Origin: a virus
Strand: one strand, 5' to 3'
DNA length: 23,757 nucleotides
Virus record (IMG/VR): IMGVR_UViG_3300020186_000091
Coordinates: 1 to 23,757 of that record
Part shown: positions 8,790-16,150 of the stretch, one piece after another
Layout of the letters: each line of letters begins with the position of its first letter
How positions within the stretch are numbered: the first letter of the stretch is position 1
Notes under the pieces: model-generated
The model's database searches: none
Seen by the model: only the letters and a program-made list of their open reading frames with translations
What the model was told of the DNA's origin: nothing
Translations under genes and position numbers: made by a program

Positions 8790-9962
8790 ATGTTTGTTGA
8801 CTTCGTAATCAATGGTCCTGGCGGAATCACCGGGGGCGGTGAAGTGGGTGAGGCGTTGCAAGCCACTCGCTTCGATCCCGGCTTCATGCGCCCCTTCCTC
8901 AACCGCAAGCGCCAGAAGTGCGTCACGGTACATACCGGACGACAGACGCTGAATGAAAAGGGTGAGCTGACTCCCGAGTACAAGACGGTACTGGTCAGTG
9001 ACCTGATGCGTCGTGGCTACGAGATGCCAGTGTACAACGCGATGACTCTCCGCCGGGATGAGTGGGTGATGTTCGATCAGGCCGTTACCCGTGCCGGTCG
9101 TGGACGTCTCCGAGCATGGAGCGATCTGGCTGCTTCCAGTACCTTCGGCGGCTTCGACGGTATGGCGAAGTTGACCCTGGAATATGAAAGCATGTCCGAT
9201 CCGGGTGAGGCCATCGTCGACATGGAGGGTCTGGCGGATGGTCGTACGGATAGCTCGCTGTTCAAGACTCGGTCCATCCCGCTGCCCATAATTCACTCGG
9301 ACTTCTGGTTCAGCCGTCGGCGTCTGGCGGTCAGCCGCAATAGTGGCACCCCGCTGGACACCACCATGGCCGAGGCAGCCGGTCGTCGGGTTGCCGAGAT
9401 GATCGAGAAGATCACCATCGGTGTGGAGGCAGGCATCAATTTCGGCACCGACAGCAATCGTCACGAGGGGAACAGTCAGGTGTACGGGTACACCAACTTC
9501 CCCCAGCGCATGACGAAGACGGATCTCACCACGCCAAACGGCACCAACGCTTCCAGCATCATTGGCGATATCATCGAGATGCGTGAGGAGATGTACGCCT
9601 CGAACTTCTTCGGGCCGTTCATGGTGTACCATACTCCATCGTATGACGCCTACCTGGACATGGACTATATCCTGACCGGTGGCAACGTGGCCACGCAAAC
9701 ACTTCGGCAGCGCATCGAAGCCATCGACGGCGTTCAGGGTATGCGCCGCCTGGACTTCTGGACTGGCAGCTCCTTCCAGATGATCATGGTCCAGATGCAG
9801 CCCGAGACGGCCCGTGCCATCAACGGCATGGACTTCACCACGGTCCAATGGGAGTCGCAGGGCGGGATGCGGCTGAACTTCAAGGTGATGGCCATCCAGC
9901 TGCCTCAGCTCCGTACGAACTATGCCGGGGACGCGGGCATCATCCACGCTACGACCGCGTAG
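8790..9962 (+). CDS. Major capsid protein (HK97-fold inferred)
   Basis: The 390-residue protein follows protease/scaffold and decoration genes, the position and length of the major capsid protein. TAGGAG upstream supports ATG 8790. Residues visible include an N-terminal arm (residues 1-60), a long helical stretch (TMAEAAGRRVAEMIEKITIGVEAG, about 190-213), a YGYTNFPQR segment, a helix EMREEMYASNFF, and a C-terminal beta region (QMIMVQMQPE, MRLNFKVMAIQLPQLR). These fit an HK97-like core with spine helix and peripheral domain. The call rests on synteny and overall features. I see no way to tell crosslinking chemistry. A family A repeat lies just after the stop. Confidence 0.87.
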   Translation: MFVDFVINGPGGITGGGEVGEALQATRFDPGFMRPFLNRKRQKCVTVHTGRQTLNEKGELTPEYKTVLVSDLMRRGYEMPVYNAMTLRRDEWVMFDQAVTRAGRGRLRAWSDLAASSTFGGFDGMAKLTLEYESMSDPGEAIVDMEGLADGRTDSSLFKTRSIPLPIIHSDFWFSRRRLAVSRNSGTPLDTTMAEAAGRRVAEMIEKITIGVEAGINFGTDSNRHEGNSQVYGYTNFPQRMTKTDLTTPNGTNASSIIGDIIEMREEMYASNFFGPFMVYHTPSYDAYLDMDYILTGGNVATQTLRQRIEAIDGVQGMRRLDFWTGSSFQMIMVQMQPETARAINGMDFTTVQWESQGGMRLNFKVMAIQLPQLRTNYAGDAGIIHATTA

Positions 9963-9985
9963 GCATAACGCCGGGCACTCCGACC

Positions 9986-10016
9986 CTAGTGCGAAGCACC
10001 GGGCTTAATGCCCTAG
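9986..10016 (+). repeat. Family A hairpin repeat after the capsid gene
   Basis: This 31-base copy is identical to 1790-1820, with CTAG at both ends and the GTGC-GAA-GCAC and GGGC-TTAAT-GCCC hairpins. It lies 23 bases after the capsid stop and before the next gene's Shine-Dalgarno, where a hairpin could define an mRNA end. Confidence 0.92.
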
Positions 10017-10083
10017 TACGAGAGTGCCTATTGTTCAACCTCCACCCATTCCCATCCAAGTAATAACGCTCAAGGAGAGACTG

Positions 10084-10560
10084 ATGGCTCGGTTCAAGTT
10101 GATCGCCGGGAAGCACACTGCGCGGGAGAAGCCCAAGAAGGAGGGTGAGCGAGGTGCCCTTGTCCACTACAGTCGGGGGGACGTTGTCGAGTCCGATCGG
10201 GACCTGGTCAAGCAGTTCGGCAGTGAGAAGTTCCAGTTCCTGGGGGGTAAAGTCGAGGAGTTCGATACCCCTGCCAATGCCCGTGAATTCCCCCATGGGC
10301 AGGTCCATTCGGGGATGCAGAAGGCTACCCCCAAGGGTGAGGCCCCCCACCGTTCCACCGTTGACCAGGAGCTGACCGATGATCTGCCCCCGGTCAACGA
10401 GGATGCCATACCGGAGGGTGAGGCCGATGACGGTCTCGAAGAGTTGAAGCTGGACGAACTCAAGGAGCTTGCCAGCGAGCAGGAGATTGACCTCAGCGGC
10501 GCTCACAAGAAGGTGGACATCATCAACCGAATTCGCCAGTCCCGTGAGGAGGATGCGTAG
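10084..10560 (+). CDS. Small protein with a C-terminal SAP/HeH/Rho-N-like helical module
   Basis: AAGGAGAG at 10071-10078 fixes ATG 10084 and gives 158 residues; a GTG 60 bases upstream is in frame but overlaps the spacer after a family A repeat. The N-terminal third (FKLIAGKHT, GALVHYSRGDVVESDRDLVK) resembles small phage proteins that follow capsid genes and carry a short beta-rich module. An acidic linker follows. The C-terminal 35 residues (ELKLDELKELASEQEIDLSG, then HKKVDIINRIRQ) have the helix-extended loop-helix pattern of SAP/HeH/Rho N-terminal domains, which often bind nucleic acid. The role is unknown; a head-associated or DNA-contacting protein is possible. Confidence 0.7.
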   Translation: MARFKLIAGKHTAREKPKKEGERGALVHYSRGDVVESDRDLVKQFGSEKFQFLGGKVEEFDTPANAREFPHGQVHSGMQKATPKGEAPHRSTVDQELTDDLPPVNEDAIPEGEADDGLEELKLDELKELASEQEIDLSGAHKKVDIINRIRQSREEDA

Positions 10561-10586
10561 TACGAAGTGCGGGGCTTCATGCGATG
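10558..10586 (+). repeat. Degenerate family A repeat at a stop codon
   Basis: TAGTACGAAGTGCGGGGCTT then CATGCGATG aligns with family A at most positions. Stem bases have drifted. The initial TAG is the stop codon of the preceding gene, so the repeat begins exactly at the gene end. Confidence 0.6.
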
Positions 10587-10650
10587 TATGGAGTCCCGGA
10601 ATTCCCCCCCACTCTCCACGAGTTAACCCAATGATGCAGGAGTACGCAGG

Positions 10651-11007
10651 ATGGTGGAGGTACTACTCGCTGCCATCGCTTCGCCTTTCCTATGGGAGTT
10701 CATCCGGTATCTGATTGGGTTCGCCAGGAAGAAGGAGTACCTAGAGTTCACCCATGAGCAATACGTCAAGGATGTTCAGGGACTGTACGAGCGGCTGGAA
10801 AAGCAAGAGCAACACGTCGACAGTCTTGAAGTACAAATCAAAGACCTGATCAAGAGTGATATGGTCAAGTCATCGCAACTTATTAGAACTCAGCTGGATC
10901 TGGAGTTTTCCCAAAGGGAAAAGCGGCGCTTGCAGTCCGAGCTGAAACTATTGAAGGGAGGTGCGGGTGATGATCAACATTCGCCGTCGCAGGATCCTGA
11001 TAGTTGA
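10651..11007 (+). CDS. Membrane-anchored coiled-coil protein
   Basis: AGGAG at 10638-10642 supports ATG 10651 and gives 118 residues. Residues 4-24 form a hydrophobic helix (LLAAIASPFLWEFIRYLIGF) followed by Arg-Lys-Lys, which predicts an N-terminal anchor with the rest in the cytoplasm if the positive-inside rule holds. Residues about 40-100 are a charged heptad-like coiled coil (LYERLEKQEQHVDSLEVQIK). The polar tail overlaps the receiver gene that follows by 38 bases in another frame. It could be a spanin- or holin-like lysis protein, a structural anchor, or a partner of the receiver. No kinase motifs are present. Not a recognised family. Confidence 0.72.
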   Translation: MVEVLLAAIASPFLWEFIRYLIGFARKKEYLEFTHEQYVKDVQGLYERLEKQEQHVDSLEVQIKDLIKSDMVKSSQLIRTQLDLEFSQREKRRLQSELKLLKGGAGDDQHSPSQDPDS

Positions 11008-11449
11008 GGATGACATTGCTAGTGCCCGCAACTTGGCGGAATGCCTGCCCTGCTTTGAAGTGGATGGTGCTGACACGTTCAGGGATGCCCGGCGAAAACT
11101 GGTATCCAGCATTGATGATCCCTATAGTGCCATCATCTTAGACCTGCAACTGCCTGACGCTCATGGCTCCGCGTTAGCTGCCATTGTCCATGACAAATGG
11201 ACTGAGATACCAATCATCGTTGTCACGGGCATGTCGGCCAAGGAGGAGTCATCAATCAAGTTATACCGGGCTGGGGCGCAGAAGATCCTACGCAAGCCAT
11301 ACGATCCCGAGGAGTTGAGGCAAGCACTGCTCGAGATGATCTCCAAGAAAGAGGCATCCAATCTAGTGTCCCCAGCCAGGCAAGACATCCAAGAGACCAA
11401 AGAAATGGTTAGCAAACTGGCAAACAAGAGTATCAGCGATAAGGCGTGA
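10970..11449 (+). CDS. Stand-alone response-regulator receiver protein
   Basis: Receiver domains take a phosphoryl group from a histidine kinase on an Asp and switch conformation. ATG 10970 has GGGAGG 8 bases upstream (10956-10961); a GTG at 10961 is less likely. In the 159-residue product all key residues are present: the acidic pocket in ILIVEDD (Glu13, Asp14), phosphoacceptor Asp58 in IILDLQLPD, Thr86 in IVVTG, and Lys109 in LRKPYD. After the receiver (to about 127) only a charged helical tail follows, with no DNA-binding or enzymatic output domain. It overlaps the membrane coiled-coil gene and is followed 5 bases later by a haem protein gene. No cognate kinase is visible here, so a host kinase is the likely donor. 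Confidence 0.9.
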   Translation: MINIRRRRILIVEDDIASARNLAECLPCFEVDGADTFRDARRKLVSSIDDPYSAIILDLQLPDAHGSALAAIVHDKWTEIPIIVVTGMSAKEESSIKLYRAGAQKILRKPYDPEELRQALLEMISKKEASNLVSPARQDIQETKEMVSKLANKSISDKA

Positions 11450-11454
11450 ACTAA

Positions 11455-12972
11455 GTGCAAAGAACCCTACTATGCCTGATCGCGATGGTGAGCGCGGTTC
11501 CCGTGCAAGCCCAGCGGATGCCTTTTCTATTCCCCAAGGAACCCGAGGCAGTATCTCCAGCGCAGGTCGCCGTACTAGTCCATAAGGATCTCCAGCAGTA
11601 CTCAGACTCTGACAGGTATTACCTACGCTACTTGTACCTTCATAACCTCCCCACCTCAGCGGCTAGGTTCCGTATGGCAAGAGTGCTGGCAGGTCACAAC
11701 AATGGCATGAGCTGCGAGCCTGATCTAAAGGCTCCCCAGCCAATAACTCCCAGCGGTGCGGTCTACCGTATTGACCTTCGATGGTACGGTTGGAATATCA
11801 AGACCTGGGACCTTCTCCTAGACCCCTACTCCACCATACAGTCGGTGGTATTCATACAGAAGGCAGGTGTACCTTGGAAGGAGGGGGATGGCAAGACGTA
11901 TGACTACGACTTCAAGTACATCAAGAAAGGGGAGAAGTATATAGCCCCTCACCTGTCGCAGCCCCCATCCAGTCCTCAGGTGATGGATGATATCTACAAG
12001 TGGACTGGATCATTCGTACCCATGGTGCGGGGGGATTGGTTCCTGTCACAGACCGCCACGCAGGAGGACAAGGTGCCAGGGTACTACGACTTCCTGGGGG
12101 TTAAGGACGAGAAGACCTTTGAGGAGCTGGTACGTTTCGATCGCAAGCTGAGTAAGAACACCGAACATGTCAGGGGTCACATATTCTCAGGCATCGTCAG
12201 CCAACCCCGTAGGACCAGTCGTAAGAACACCGTGTTCGGGGGGTACAGGGAGAGCTTCGACAGTCTCAAGGCGGTAGGGCTGAAGAACCCATTGATATTC
12301 CTGGATGACCAGTTTGAGTTTGACATCTCGGAGAAGTATGCACCCCTACCCAATGGCTTCCCGGCATGGTTCCTCGGGGACAACAAAGGCAATAGGGCTG
12401 ACAAGGCGTTGGACGGCATAGTTGGCGCTGATATGTTCGGTGCCCAATACGCACCCACTGGAACCAAGGTAAACGACAACCGCCTCCAGATCAACGTATC
12501 CTGCATCAGCTGCCACTACGCCAGCCTGGATGAGAATGGGGTGAAGAACACTGGGGCAGCCGCTATCAGCAAGATCAACGAGCCGGACTACTACATCCTC
12601 CAAGACCTCACCCGCAAGTATCTCCGCGACATTGAGCTGCCAACCAAGATTGACCGACTGGGATATTACTCGACCATCAAGTCCGCAACGGGGTGGGAAC
12701 CTGCCGAATACGCCGTGGAGTATCGAACCGCCCACAGTCTGTATGAGTTTGGAAAAATAGGGCTGAAGACAGCGGCGAGGGAGATGGGCGTAAACTACGT
12801 CGAGATGGGGGTCAAGCTGGCTGGCTACGACTTGGCGACTGGAAACAAGCTGCATCCAATGCTCTCCTTCATTCGTGACGGGGGTGAGATCCCCAGACGC
12901 CAGTGGGAGGAAGCATTCCCGGAAGCCATGCGGGTCTACTATTCAACGACCCTAATTCCTAAGGAGAAGTGA
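11455..12972 (+). CDS. Large exported mono-haem c-type cytochrome-like protein
   Basis: A 505-residue protein with an N-terminal signal peptide (hydrophobic core about 4-14, AQA-like cleavage near 19). GTG 11455 has a weak AAGG at 11441-11444 and lies 5 bases after the receiver stop, so coupling is likely. A CISCH motif at residues 350-354 is the classic CxxCH haem c attachment site. Candidate distal Met residues lie in the C-terminal part (for example HPMLSF). The long N-terminal region (20-340) is rich in Tyr, Trp and Lys with no family I recognise. Such large one-haem proteins are common among exported planctomycete proteins, so host origin of the gene is likely. Being in a phage late operon is unusual. 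Confidence 0.75.
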   Translation: MQRTLLCLIAMVSAVPVQAQRMPFLFPKEPEAVSPAQVAVLVHKDLQQYSDSDRYYLRYLYLHNLPTSAARFRMARVLAGHNNGMSCEPDLKAPQPITPSGAVYRIDLRWYGWNIKTWDLLLDPYSTIQSVVFIQKAGVPWKEGDGKTYDYDFKYIKKGEKYIAPHLSQPPSSPQVMDDIYKWTGSFVPMVRGDWFLSQTATQEDKVPGYYDFLGVKDEKTFEELVRFDRKLSKNTEHVRGHIFSGIVSQPRRTSRKNTVFGGYRESFDSLKAVGLKNPLIFLDDQFEFDISEKYAPLPNGFPAWFLGDNKGNRADKALDGIVGADMFGAQYAPTGTKVNDNRLQINVSCISCHYASLDENGVKNTGAAAISKINEPDYYILQDLTRKYLRDIELPTKIDRLGYYSTIKSATGWEPAEYAVEYRTAHSLYEFGKIGLKTAAREMGVNYVEMGVKLAGYDLATGNKLHPMLSFIRDGGEIPRRQWEEAFPEAMRVYYSTTLIPKEK

Positions 12973-13640
12973 TGAAGACCGTTCTATCTTGTACCCTGCT
13001 CACTTTACTTCTGCTCAGCGATACCACCAACGTAGAGGGTGGTGATTGTGCTAGGTTCGGCACCTACCGTATTCAGCAACGTCATGGTTACGCCGTTCAG
13101 TCCTACGCCACCCATCAGTACGTTGCCCCTCAGCAAGCCGTATACGTTGCTCCAGTCGTGGCCGTATACGTGCCTCTCTATACACCGACGTACAACGTGA
13201 CGTACGACCCTACAGGGGGTGCGGCTGGTCTGGCATTACTCGAACGGCTACAGTCGCTTGAGAACAAGGTAGACCGCATCAACGTGGCACCCACTGTCGA
13301 GCCGGTAGCCCCCGGTCCAATAGACCCTCCCACGTTCCTGCCACGCCGTAAGGCACCACCACCGAAAGCCCTACTCCCAGGTAGTGGACCAACCCTCAGC
13401 GGCGCTAAGTTGTTCATCACGAAGTGTGCTAGCTGCCACGATGGGAAGAAGGGGGGCAACCCGGTTCTATTCGACAAGGGTGGTCTCATCAATCGTGATG
13501 GTGTTCCTGAGTCCATAATGCAGGCATTGCGTACAGGTAAGATGGGAAAGCAGAAGCTGCCCCTGTTGACCGATGCTCAACGATTGGAGATGACTTACCA
13601 TCTGTTCGACCTTCCGCCCCCGCTTATGGCAAAGAAGTAA
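12972..13640 (+). CDS. Exported small cytochrome c-like protein
   Basis: AAGGAG at 12961-12966 and a TGATG overlap with the previous stop support ATG 12972 (222 residues). Residues 1-17 form a signal peptide, perhaps lipid-free since no lipobox is clear. Residues 40-80 are Tyr/Val/Ala/Pro-rich (YVAPQQAVYVAPVVAVYVP), a short coiled coil at 88-104 (LLERLQSLENKV) and a Pro-rich linker follow. Residues 140-215 form a cytochrome c domain: LSGAKLFITKCASCHDGKKG with CASCH at 152-156, and a probable axial Met191 in TGKMGKQKLPLLTDAQ. The product should act outside the cytoplasmic membrane as an electron carrier or redox sensor. It pairs with the larger haem protein upstream. Confidence 0.85.
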   Translation: MKTVLSCTLLTLLLLSDTTNVEGGDCARFGTYRIQQRHGYAVQSYATHQYVAPQQAVYVAPVVAVYVPLYTPTYNVTYDPTGGAAGLALLERLQSLENKVDRINVAPTVEPVAPGPIDPPTFLPRRKAPPPKALLPGSGPTLSGAKLFITKCASCHDGKKGGNPVLFDKGGLINRDGVPESIMQALRTGKMGKQKLPLLTDAQRLEMTYHLFDLPPPLMAKK

Positions 13641-13684
13641 TGTGGAAGGGTATTATCGTCAGTCCGTTTCAAAGGAGGTTCACC

Positions 13685-14167
13685 ATGCGTTTCTTATGTG
13701 CCCTTGCATCCCTTGTCCTAGTCGGTGCGTCCGCTCAGGCGTGCGACTATGGCCTGGTGATGAGCCGGTTCAATGCACCGGCCTTCGACATCCCCCAGTA
13801 CGCACCGTGCGGGGTGAGTAGCTCGCAGACCCCCGTATACTACGGTCAGCAACAGTTCCAGGCGGGATACGGTCAACAGTTCCAGGTGGGATACGGTCAG
13901 CAACAGTTCCAGGCGGGATACGGCCAATCCAGGTTCTTCGCACCGAGAGCCTTCGCCCCTAGCTATGCTCCAGCGTTTGCACCTAGCTATGCTCCAGCGT
14001 TTGCACCTAGCTATGCTCCAGCGTTTGCACCTAGGCAGCGGTTCTTCGCTCCACAAGTGCCGGTATATGTCCCCTCCCATGGGATAGGTGGGGGTGGATC
14101 ACTGTTCAATTTCAACTTCATTCGCAACCGCCAACCACGACAGCTCGGCGGGCTGCTCGGTAGGTAG
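13685..14167 (+). CDS. Exported low-complexity Tyr/Gln/Ala/Pro repeat protein
   Basis: AAAGGAGG at 13671-13678 fixes ATG 13685 (160 residues), not the in-frame start 45 bases earlier. Residues 1-18 are a signal peptide with a good cleavage site (ASAQA). The mature protein has a QQFQAGYGQ-type repeat three times, then three exact copies of an eight-residue unit containing SYAPAFAP, a RQRFFAPQVPVYVPS segment, and a Gly-rich, Arg-rich tail. Two Cys occur near the mature N-terminus. There is no enzymatic motif. It is probably an exposed, unstructured or fibrous surface protein. Planctomycete cell-surface proteins show similar composition, so it may act at the host envelope. Confidence 0.75.
   Translation: MRFLCALASLVLVGASAQACDYGLVMSRFNAPAFDIPQYAPCGVSSSQTPVYYGQQQFQAGYGQQFQVGYGQQQFQAGYGQSRFFAPRAFAPSYAPAFAPSYAPAFAPSYAPAFAPRQRFFAPQVPVYVPSHGIGGGGSLFNFNFIRNRQPRQLGGLLGR
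13958..14029 (+). repeat. Three identical 24-base coding repeats
   Basis: Units at 13958-13981, 13982-14005 and 14006-14029 are identical at every base. Each starts CCTAGCTATGC and ends TCCAGCGTTTGCA. A partial fourth begins at 14030. Perfect identity, including wobble positions, indicates recent expansion by slippage or recombination. Confidence 0.95.
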
Positions 14168-14232: not shown

Positions 14233-14260
14233 TTTCTAACCCCTTCAATGTGTGGAACCC

Positions 14261-15367
14261 ATGCCAAAGACCAAAGTAAAAACGCAGTTCATCCCATGCA
14301 CCCCGGTTGAACTACCCAAGTCCAGCATCGTCCAGTCCGCATTAGAGGCTGTCAGGGTGAACCCCTGCAATGCCCCTGCCATTACGGGCATCATTCCCTC
14401 GATCCTGACGGCGCTGCACGTTCATACCCTACCTGTCATCGAGCCGATGAAGATTGCCGTACTGACCTCCAAGTACTGGGGAGCGCAAGGCATAGACCTG
14501 ACCGTTGGGTTCATGGAGCAGACGCCGAATGATCTCCGTGATCGCATACTGAGTCACATGAATGCAGTAGGCGGCACTGCCCCACGGTTCGCCAACATAA
14601 AGTTCAGGTGGAGTCCCACCACTCCTGACGTAAGGATCACGCGCAGTGGTGACGGGTATTGGTCCTACCTCGGTGTGGACGTGAGGTCCATCCCACGAAG
14701 TCGGCCGACGATGTGCCTTCAAGGATTCACGATGAGTACCCCCGAAAGGGAGTATCGGAGAGTAGTGCGGCACGAGACTCTCCATACTTGCGGCTGCCCC
14801 CATGAGCATCTTCGGAGGCAATTGGTGGACCGTATCGACCCGGCAAAGGCCATTACGTATTTCAGGCAGATGGGATGGGACGAGGCTACCACTCGTAGTA
14901 ATGTCCTCACTCCCTTGGAAGAACGCTCGATCATGGGCACTCCCCATGCCGAGGAGACCTCCATCATGGCGTATCAGCTGCCTGCCAGCATTACCCGTGA
15001 TGGCAGGCCGATCCAAGGCGGTAGCGATCTCACCCCTCTTGACAAGGAGTTCTTGGGTAAGATATATCCCGTGACTGACGTACCGCCCCACCACCTCCCT
15101 CCGACTGCATCCAAGGTCCGGTTCGTCATTGAGACGGATGGCAAGGTGACGGGGGCGAGACTTCTTACCCTTGATCCACCGCGTGGCCTAGGGGACTTGT
15201 CCATCGTCGACCTAGTGGAGACTGGTAAGTTGCTACTCAAGTTGCTGGAGCTGCTAGGCATCAAGTTGGGGGGCAGTGGTGGTACTGACCCAGCCCCCAC
15301 CACGAAGTCCCGCATTACGTTGGAAGCAGACGTTCATCCCGGTGCGGTACGGGTAGTATCCGTGTAG
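14261..15367 (+). CDS. Astacin-like zinc metalloprotease (metzincin, M12A type)
   Basis: This 368-residue protein carries the extended zinc motif HETLHTCGCPHE at residues 171-182 (His171, Glu172, His175, His181 of HExxHxxGxxHE) and a Met-turn SIMAY at 234-238, both defining astacin-like metzincins. The segment at 120-142 (DVRITRSGDGYWSYLGVDV) fits the strands before the active site. Residues 1-60 are an N-terminal extension with no signal peptide. Residues 275-368 form a C-terminal region with a hydrophobic helix (LLLKLLELLGIKL). ATG 14261 has no strong Shine-Dalgarno; GTG 14252 is an alternative. Without an export signal it may reach its substrate through lysis or as a virion part. A role in digesting host surface protein is inference. 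Confidence 0.85.
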   Translation: MPKTKVKTQFIPCTPVELPKSSIVQSALEAVRVNPCNAPAITGIIPSILTALHVHTLPVIEPMKIAVLTSKYWGAQGIDLTVGFMEQTPNDLRDRILSHMNAVGGTAPRFANIKFRWSPTTPDVRITRSGDGYWSYLGVDVRSIPRSRPTMCLQGFTMSTPEREYRRVVRHETLHTCGCPHEHLRRQLVDRIDPAKAITYFRQMGWDEATTRSNVLTPLEERSIMGTPHAEETSIMAYQLPASITRDGRPIQGGSDLTPLDKEFLGKIYPVTDVPPHHLPPTASKVRFVIETDGKVTGARLLTLDPPRGLGDLSIVDLVETGKLLLKLLELLGIKLGGSGGTDPAPTTKSRITLEADVHPGAVRVVSV

Positions 15368-15418: not shown

Positions 15419-15646
15419 ATGGCAAAGTCCAAATCTCAGATGCCGAAGTTCAACAGTGACGAGCAGGAGCAGCTTCGGCAGATGGGCATCGATGACCCCC
15501 AGAACTTGAGTTTGGGTGACCTCGGCAGCCTGCTCCCCAAGCTGATAGGATTCCTCAAGACTGCTACCAGTCTGCTTGAGAAGCTGGGTCCGCTGTTCGA
15601 AAGGGCGGCCGAGCAGAAGGCCGACGAGGAATCCGAGGAAGAGTAG
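15419..15646 (+). CDS. Small acidic protein, unknown function
   Basis: GGAG at 15409-15412 supports ATG 15419 (75 residues); a TTG 12 bases earlier is unlikely. The protein has a polar N-terminus (FNSDEQEQLRQMGIDDPQ), a moderately hydrophobic amphipathic region (LGSLLPKLIGFLKTATSLLE, about 36-55) and a very acidic tail. There are no Cys and no recognisable domain. It lies between the metalloprotease and the connector gene and is followed by a strong hairpin. It could be a small virion or chaperone-like protein, but no function can be assigned. Confidence 0.72.
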   Translation: MAKSKSQMPKFNSDEQEQLRQMGIDDPQNLSLGDLGSLLPKLIGFLKTATSLLEKLGPLFERAAEQKADEESEEE

Positions 15647-15724: not shown

Positions 15725-16150
15725 ATGCCAGTTCACACTAATGCAACTGCCGTGGAACTACTGCTAGGCGACGACTACGATGCTCAGCGTGTCGGCGGCC
15801 TACAGCCTTTCATTGACACGGCCAATGCCATCATTGACAGCGTGGAGGCATGCGCTGGGACTACTCTTACAGAGAGTAGGCTGGAATTGATGGAGCGATG
15901 GTTATCTGCTCATTGCTATTGCCAGTCGGACCCTACCTACGCTAACGAAAGCAAGGGCGGAGCTAGTGGTGCATACACGGGGCAGACCGGCATGTTCCTT
16001 GAGAGTACTCGCTATGGGCAGATGGCGCTAAGTCTGGATAGTACGGGGTGCCTTGCTGAAGTAACGAAGCCTGAGGGCCGTCCAGTGGCAGGGGGGTTCT
16101 GGATGGGTAAGCGTACCAGTACCCGTCGTACTTATCGGGAGCGTAACTAA
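15725..16150 (+). CDS. Head-tail connector (adaptor) protein
   Basis: This 141-residue protein begins the head-tail joining block. AAGGGTAG precedes ATG 15725. The N-terminal half is helical (VGGLQPFIDTANAIIDSVEA, then ESRLELMERWLSAHCYC), as in gp6-like adaptors that bind below the portal. Next comes a loop region rich in Gly, Ser and Tyr (GGASGAYTGQTGMFLESTRY), and a C-terminal basic tail. The stop overlaps the next ATG (TAATG). Adaptor-type proteins of similar length with the SDPTYANES-like bend occur in siphoviruses. The call depends on synteny (adaptor, closure, gp10-like, terminator) plus helical pattern. Confidence 0.78.
   Translation: MPVHTNATAVELLLGDDYDAQRVGGLQPFIDTANAIIDSVEACAGTTLTESRLELMERWLSAHCYCQSDPTYANESKGGASGAYTGQTGMFLESTRYGQMALSLDSTGCLAEVTKPEGRPVAGGFWMGKRTSTRRTYRERN

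Follow-up and report, generated by a model that had tools for sequence, protein, structure and literature searches.

Two adjacent genes in the late region of a phage genome were found to encode predicted exported haem c proteins, and this redox pair may be the centrepiece of an accessory module that phages carry among their late genes, a reading in which our confidence falls somewhat below even. Attachment of haem c takes place outside the cytoplasm and relies on the maturation system of the host; thus the pair, if it bears haem, would act in the periplasm or the envelope. It would represent an undescribed viral tool, probably for electron transfer in the host cell envelope, and it leads one to ask how viruses make use of electrons there.

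The window, that is, the whole analyzed stretch of 23,757 nucleotides, is the phage record IMGVR_UViG_3300020186_000091 in IMG/VR, in which terminase, portal-like, capsid and tail genes are all present. The first gene of the pair (11455-12972, + strand, GTG start) encodes a 505-aa exported protein with one CxxCH motif (CISCH, residues 350-354), and the second (12972-13640, + strand, ATG start) encodes a 222-aa exported protein with CASCH and a C-terminal His/Met cytochrome c domain. The two open reading frames share the stop/start overlap TGATG at 12970-12974. Their products alone carry CxxCH among those of the 24 predicted genes of the window, and when their residues were shuffled, the motif arose in 0.05% (505-aa protein) and 0.15% (222-aa protein) of the shuffles. 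On simple inspection, the N-terminus of each shows a charged start, a hydrophobic stretch and then plausible cleavage sites. The pair is flanked by a capsid gene, an HeH/Rho_N-like gene and a connector-like gene. The left structural neighbor is the capsid gene (8790-9962, +; a PHROG virion structural protein, phrog_771, E = 1.5e-15), and the right one is the connector-like gene (15725-16150, +). Between the capsid gene and the pair lies a gene for a membrane and coiled-coil protein (10651-11007, +), and a similar gene type occupies the same place in a related contig (L003, 8013-8528). The late operon also contains, directly 5′ of the pair, a gene for a stand-alone response-regulator receiver protein (10961-11449, +; Pfam PF00072, E = 1e-16), which is missing from the module of L003.

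Downstream of the pair, three further genes were assigned to the module: one for an exported Tyr/Gln/Phe/Ala-Pro repeat protein (13640-14167, +; the start is probably at 13685), one for an astacin-type (M12A) metalloprotease (14252-15367, +), and one for a small amphipathic-helix protein of 75-79 aa (15419-15646, +), whose window copy has no family match. A sequence-only reading of this DNA had described two adjacent exported haem c proteins with the TGATG overlap in a phage late operon; that description of the predicted pair is well supported, and it missed the rest of the module, namely, the protease, the helical protein and the exported repeat protein, as well as the bacterial fusions described below.

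The 505-aa protein gave no match in Pfam, PHROGs, NCBIfam, PADLOC or the PDB sequences. Its AlphaFold model, built on a 42-sequence alignment, has a pLDDT of 82.8 and a pTM of 0.83, and Foldseek returned no match at E ≤ 0.001 for this model in either the PDB (best E, 1.4) or BFVD (best E, 0.66). Eight residues are invariant over the 42 phage and bacterial sequences: Y210, S245, R252, D269, E293, C350, C353 and H354. The large protein appears, from these residues and the alignment, to belong to a haem-c domain family that has yet to be described and that is found in bacteria too, in some of them beside caspases and a NOX-like protein. No further invariant Met or His exists in the 42-sequence alignment, and therefore the far side of the putative haem may be open or may be ligated by another residue. 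Known enzyme classes were also considered. A di-haem cytochrome c peroxidase or MauG was rejected, since the phage proteins have no such Pfam or NCBIfam match and each phage chain contains one CxxCH. The respiratory families fail likewise: among the NCBIfam equivalogs, the 505-aa protein has no match and the 222-aa protein has weak matches far under the cut-offs. The literature searched, whose coverage of subscription journals is scant, contained no paper on this haem-c family or module.

The 222-aa partner is easier to classify. Its residues 143-206 match Cytochrome_CBB3 (PF13442) with 28.2 bits against the Pfam gathering cut-off of 27, and two of the partner proteins exceed the Pfam cytochrome cut-off. 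In the 17-sequence partner alignment, C153, C156, H157 and M192 (P0002 numbering) are invariant, so that the probable Met ligand pointed out from the sequence alone holds as Met192. The N-terminal part of the protein is rich in Tyr, Pro and Val. This long exported Tyr/Pro-rich region is an addition of the phage protein to the Cytochrome_CBB3/PSCyt1 type (PF13442, PF07635), which the protein otherwise matches, as do the N-terminal domains of the bacterial homologues. The structural model is poor (pLDDT 62.5, pTM 0.35). Among nine weak PDB fold matches of this low-confidence model, all with E > 1, eight are c-type cytochromes or cytochrome complexes. The best of these weak matches is to PgcA, an extracellular protein of Geobacter with small cytochrome c domains, from which the partner differs in having a single haem domain.

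Scans with single proteins gave no match to close relatives, and three-member alignments were therefore used for scanning. A search based on the capsid led to two contigs from other metagenomes (L003 and L004; 55% capsid identity), and both carry the same pair in the same place, a point that the sequence-only reading had proposed to check in related phages. By contrast, in a third contig with a related capsid (L005, 54% identical), the HeH gene is followed directly by the connector homologue, without the module. The 505-aa protein was next detected in the huge phage LR756511 (595 kb), and the alignment scans added IMG/VR contigs, which brings the family to about 20 phage contigs besides the window; all phage contigs of the family are metagenomic. 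Exactly one CxxCH is present in every phage copy of the large protein (23/23), and the motif is kept in the bacterial homologues, so that the doubt voiced earlier about its conservation does not hold. CxxCH and the Met ligand are retained in all 18 aligned phage partners. The partner adjoins the large gene wherever the contig is long enough, except at an additional copy of the large gene in LR756511; it is lost to contig ends in L075, L078 and L079/L080 and lies one gene further off in L076. That extra copy (LR756511.1, 361715-362878; L008) has no cytochrome partner nearby and sits beside an exported C39-like cysteine protease.

In the tree, the 20 phage sequences fall together on a single side of a branch supported at 100/100. 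The inner order of this clade is uncertain because the branches are long, including that of the window. The picture is of one phage clade of the haem-c domain whose members retain a cytochrome partner and, in most cases, a protease, on contigs ranging from short fragments to the 595-kb genome. Acquired cargo, one of the roles proposed in the sequence-only reading, is too weak a description, since the clade is specific to phages, has kept its partner gene and occurs in many unrelated phages. The pair may also influence host respiration or serve as a sensor, the other two roles that this reading had put forward. Among 294 Planctomycetota genomes, no prophage relative of the window capsid was found. 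The N-terminus KLENLETRETPAQV of the product of L017:10562-11485 resembles a segment of Gemmata-type planctomycete proteins, which may hint at the host.

Distant homologues of the large domain were found in Planctomycetota, Myxococcota, Verrucomicrobiota, Acidobacteriota and Alphaproteobacteria. They are rare, occurring in 4 of the 199 Planctomycetota genomes, the group that had been proposed earlier for searching, and in 2 of 96 Myxococcota genomes, and several copies are possible within single genomes. The bacterial chain consists of an N-terminal cytochrome c domain (PF13442, Cytochrome_CBB3, or PF07635, PSCyt1) and then the large domain, often with FGE, TPR or DUF4384 parts. Like the phage pair, it contains the two domains with their two CxxCH motifs (in L023 the first motif is degenerate) and the invariant Y/S/R/D/E residues, and in some cases it has a protease or NOX-like neighbor. 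It differs from the phage pair in being one chain with the reversed order, often with extra C-terminal parts, and in forming a separate clade, whereas the phages have separate genes. The fusion in cells, together with the adjacency in phages, is strong evidence that the two predicted haem proteins work together.

The homologues of Rhodobacteraceae and Rhizobiaceae adjoin caspases as well as a NOX/ferric-reductase-like protein, and that of one Planctomycetaceae contig adjoins a caspase; the caspase neighbors in Rhodobacteraceae and the Planctomycetaceae contig were typed as Peptidase_C14 or as PADLOC 'caspase'. At most of the bacterial loci outside the alphaproteobacteria, no caspase neighbor was seen. 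Literature that joins caspases and cytochromes consisted of papers on host-cell apoptosis alone. Two alphaproteobacterial loci (L033:7269-18420 and L041:7070-19269) each combine a NOX/ferric-reductase-like protein, a four-CxxCH fusion and at least two exported caspase-like proteases, and this operon looks like an undescribed envelope redox-protease system. Relatives of this four-CxxCH fusion in L027 and L039 have a DUF4384-like part. Two bacterial large-domain paralogues without CxxCH, which are possibly haem-free, were also observed (L047:7916-9592 and 9701-11239).

Around the pair, the phage modules contain a protease, often a small helical protein, and exported low-complexity proteins rich in Tyr, Gln, Pro and Val; counterparts of the Tyr/Gln/Phe/Ala-Pro repeat type follow the pair in most relatives. 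The protease is of variable family. It is an astacin (M12A) in the window, L003 and L011, a matrixin (M10) in L017 and L072, a papain-like enzyme in L006, L012, L018, L069, L071 and L075, and a subtilase (S8) in L016 and L078. Besides the C39-like enzyme at the second LR756511 copy, exported C39-like proteins lie about 3 kb off in L070 and L074, all with weak or no Pfam support. No protease was seen near the pair at L010, L015, L073, L076, L079 and L081, some of which are contig edges. Since unrelated protease families replace each other in the modules, proteolysis itself may matter. In two of the papain-like proteases (L018:7983-9965 and L071:4651-6555), an intein is inserted at an SSC segment that probably contains the catalytic Cys, and an additional papain-like gene was found elsewhere in the L012 contig.

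The window protease is 53% identical to its L003 homologue and is homologous to myroilysin, an astacin (M12A) enzyme (phmmer, E = 4e-18). Its score for Pfam Astacin lies under the cut-off; the HExxHxxGxxHE zinc motif (HETLHTCGCPHEH) and the Met-turn SIMAY are kept. Myroilysin has a cysteine-switch latch. In the window protease, Cys16 in the N-terminal segment may hint at such a switch, and, as a further difference, no signal peptide was seen on inspection. An N-terminal Cys occurs at approximately aligned positions in the three phage astacins, the alignment of L011 being only approximate, and the L017 matrixin aligns with the PRCG-type cysteine-switch segment of procollagenase. Most of the module proteases likewise lack a signal peptide on inspection.

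With regard to the other module genes, the counterparts of the small protein in L012 and L069 match SapB_2; the window copy has no such match, and it is possibly a counterpart of these saposin-like/helical proteins of other modules. An exported family of about 250 aa with a conserved FHVTFVLDLN-type C-terminal domain and without a Pfam family was seen to precede the pair at eight phage loci (L006:9535-10290, L012:7872-8627, L018, L069, L070, L071, L074 and L075). When four common peptidoglycan hydrolase families were looked for in 10 phage records, mostly fragments, Amidase_2, Phage_lysozyme and SLT were absent and M23 was present in one; these absences are compatible with a possible replacement of the usual endolysin by the module, for which they are weak evidence.

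These observations can be arranged into a mechanism, which we propose with graded confidence. The small His/Met cytochrome c domain, whose ligands are those of an electron carrier, would pass electrons to the large protein's haem or accept them from it. The large protein, which has a large conserved domain, would be the likely working partner, with Y210, S245, R252, D269 and E293 forming a working site. That the pair sets the redox state controlling the module's protease is a tentative extension, which we regard as possible and rather less than probable. Papain-like, C39-like and caspase enzymes use a catalytic Cys, and in most modules the protease is thiol-dependent or probably thiol-latched; a redox pair could hold or release such enzymes. 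The protease would lie dormant in the host cell until it reached the periplasm or the exterior; there it would become active and help to degrade a protein-rich host envelope at release. Since most of the module proteases have no signal peptide, they would gain access to the envelope when the membrane opens or later, but not before, which fits a role in release. Subtilases need no thiol, and their presence in two modules, together with the protease-less loci, counts against the redox-protease link, which is directly testable. The full picture, a redox-armed lysis system in many environmental phages in which a two-haem relay with a new haem-c fold switches on a thiol-latched protease outside the cytoplasm, akin to bacterial cytochrome-protease (including caspase) envelope modules, is speculative, and we doubt that every part of it is right. 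Cross-linking of the exported Tyr-rich proteins through dityrosine by the haem pair was also considered.

The same pair might instead serve auxiliary metabolism, as an electron sink or shunt in host periplasmic transport that sustains respiration without any tie to the protease. Phages with a c-type cytochrome gene are on record: two metagenome datasets are reported to contain viral SoxD, in which some motifs are lacking (PMC8190135), and such occasional capture of a host respiratory gene is the only precedent found for phage c-type cytochromes. The usual His/Met ligands of the partner cytochromes and the NOX/ferric-reductase-like protein adjoining the alphaproteobacterial homologue point the same way. 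The pair differs from viral SoxD, however: it has no SoxC/SoxD match, every copy has intact motifs, and no respiratory family matches the large protein. Moreover, the neighbors of the pair are late structural genes and genes for exported repeat proteins and proteases, and a single phage clade has been retained across unrelated phages; we therefore consider a purely metabolic role rather unlikely. That location among structural genes could also mean that the haem proteins and the exported Tyr/Pro/Gln-rich proteins are carried by the virion or make up a conductive or adhesive layer outside the cell, as the long Pro/Tyr-rich linkers of the partners and the weak fold matches to extracellular PgcA cytochrome domains might suggest. 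Nevertheless, N-terminal export signals are at odds with virion assembly in the cytoplasm, and L005 lacks the module despite its related capsid, so that the module is not essential to the particle; a virion or surface component is improbable.

The caspases beside the bacterial homologues in Rhodobacteraceae and the Planctomycetaceae contig allow another view, in which the bacterial fusions and caspases provide envelope suicide or defence, against which the phage copies would serve as decoys or inhibitors. The bacterial family is, however, rare, absent from PADLOC and mostly without a caspase neighbor outside the alphaproteobacteria, PADLOC gave no defence-system match for the two haem proteins or the window protease, and the phage copies have an intact haem motif and come with a protease of their own, which makes counter-defence quite improbable. 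Because haem binding is predicted here from sequence, and the large protein has a fold that resembles no known cytochrome, the CxxCH motifs could in principle be disulfide or metal motifs of exported structural proteins. The exact CxxCH in all phage copies, the invariant Met of the partners, the two partners over the Pfam cytochrome cut-off and the bacterial fusion to clear cytochrome domains render this very unlikely. Finally, the existence of distant bacterial homologues might raise the suspicion of an artefact or chance passenger, that is, host DNA assembled into a phage contig, as the sequence-only reading had cautioned. This is scarcely credible and was rejected: the same genes stand in the same place in related phage contigs of independent metagenomes, a huge-phage genome carries the family, the clade is phage-only, and GC is uniform across the window. 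An exported redox pair as the centrepiece of an accessory module among the late genes is the reading we prefer.

Apart from the module, a small open reading frame at 1879-2157 of the window was observed to carry N-terminal in-frame SGSDASSI repeats and to overlap the upstream end of the portal-like gene.
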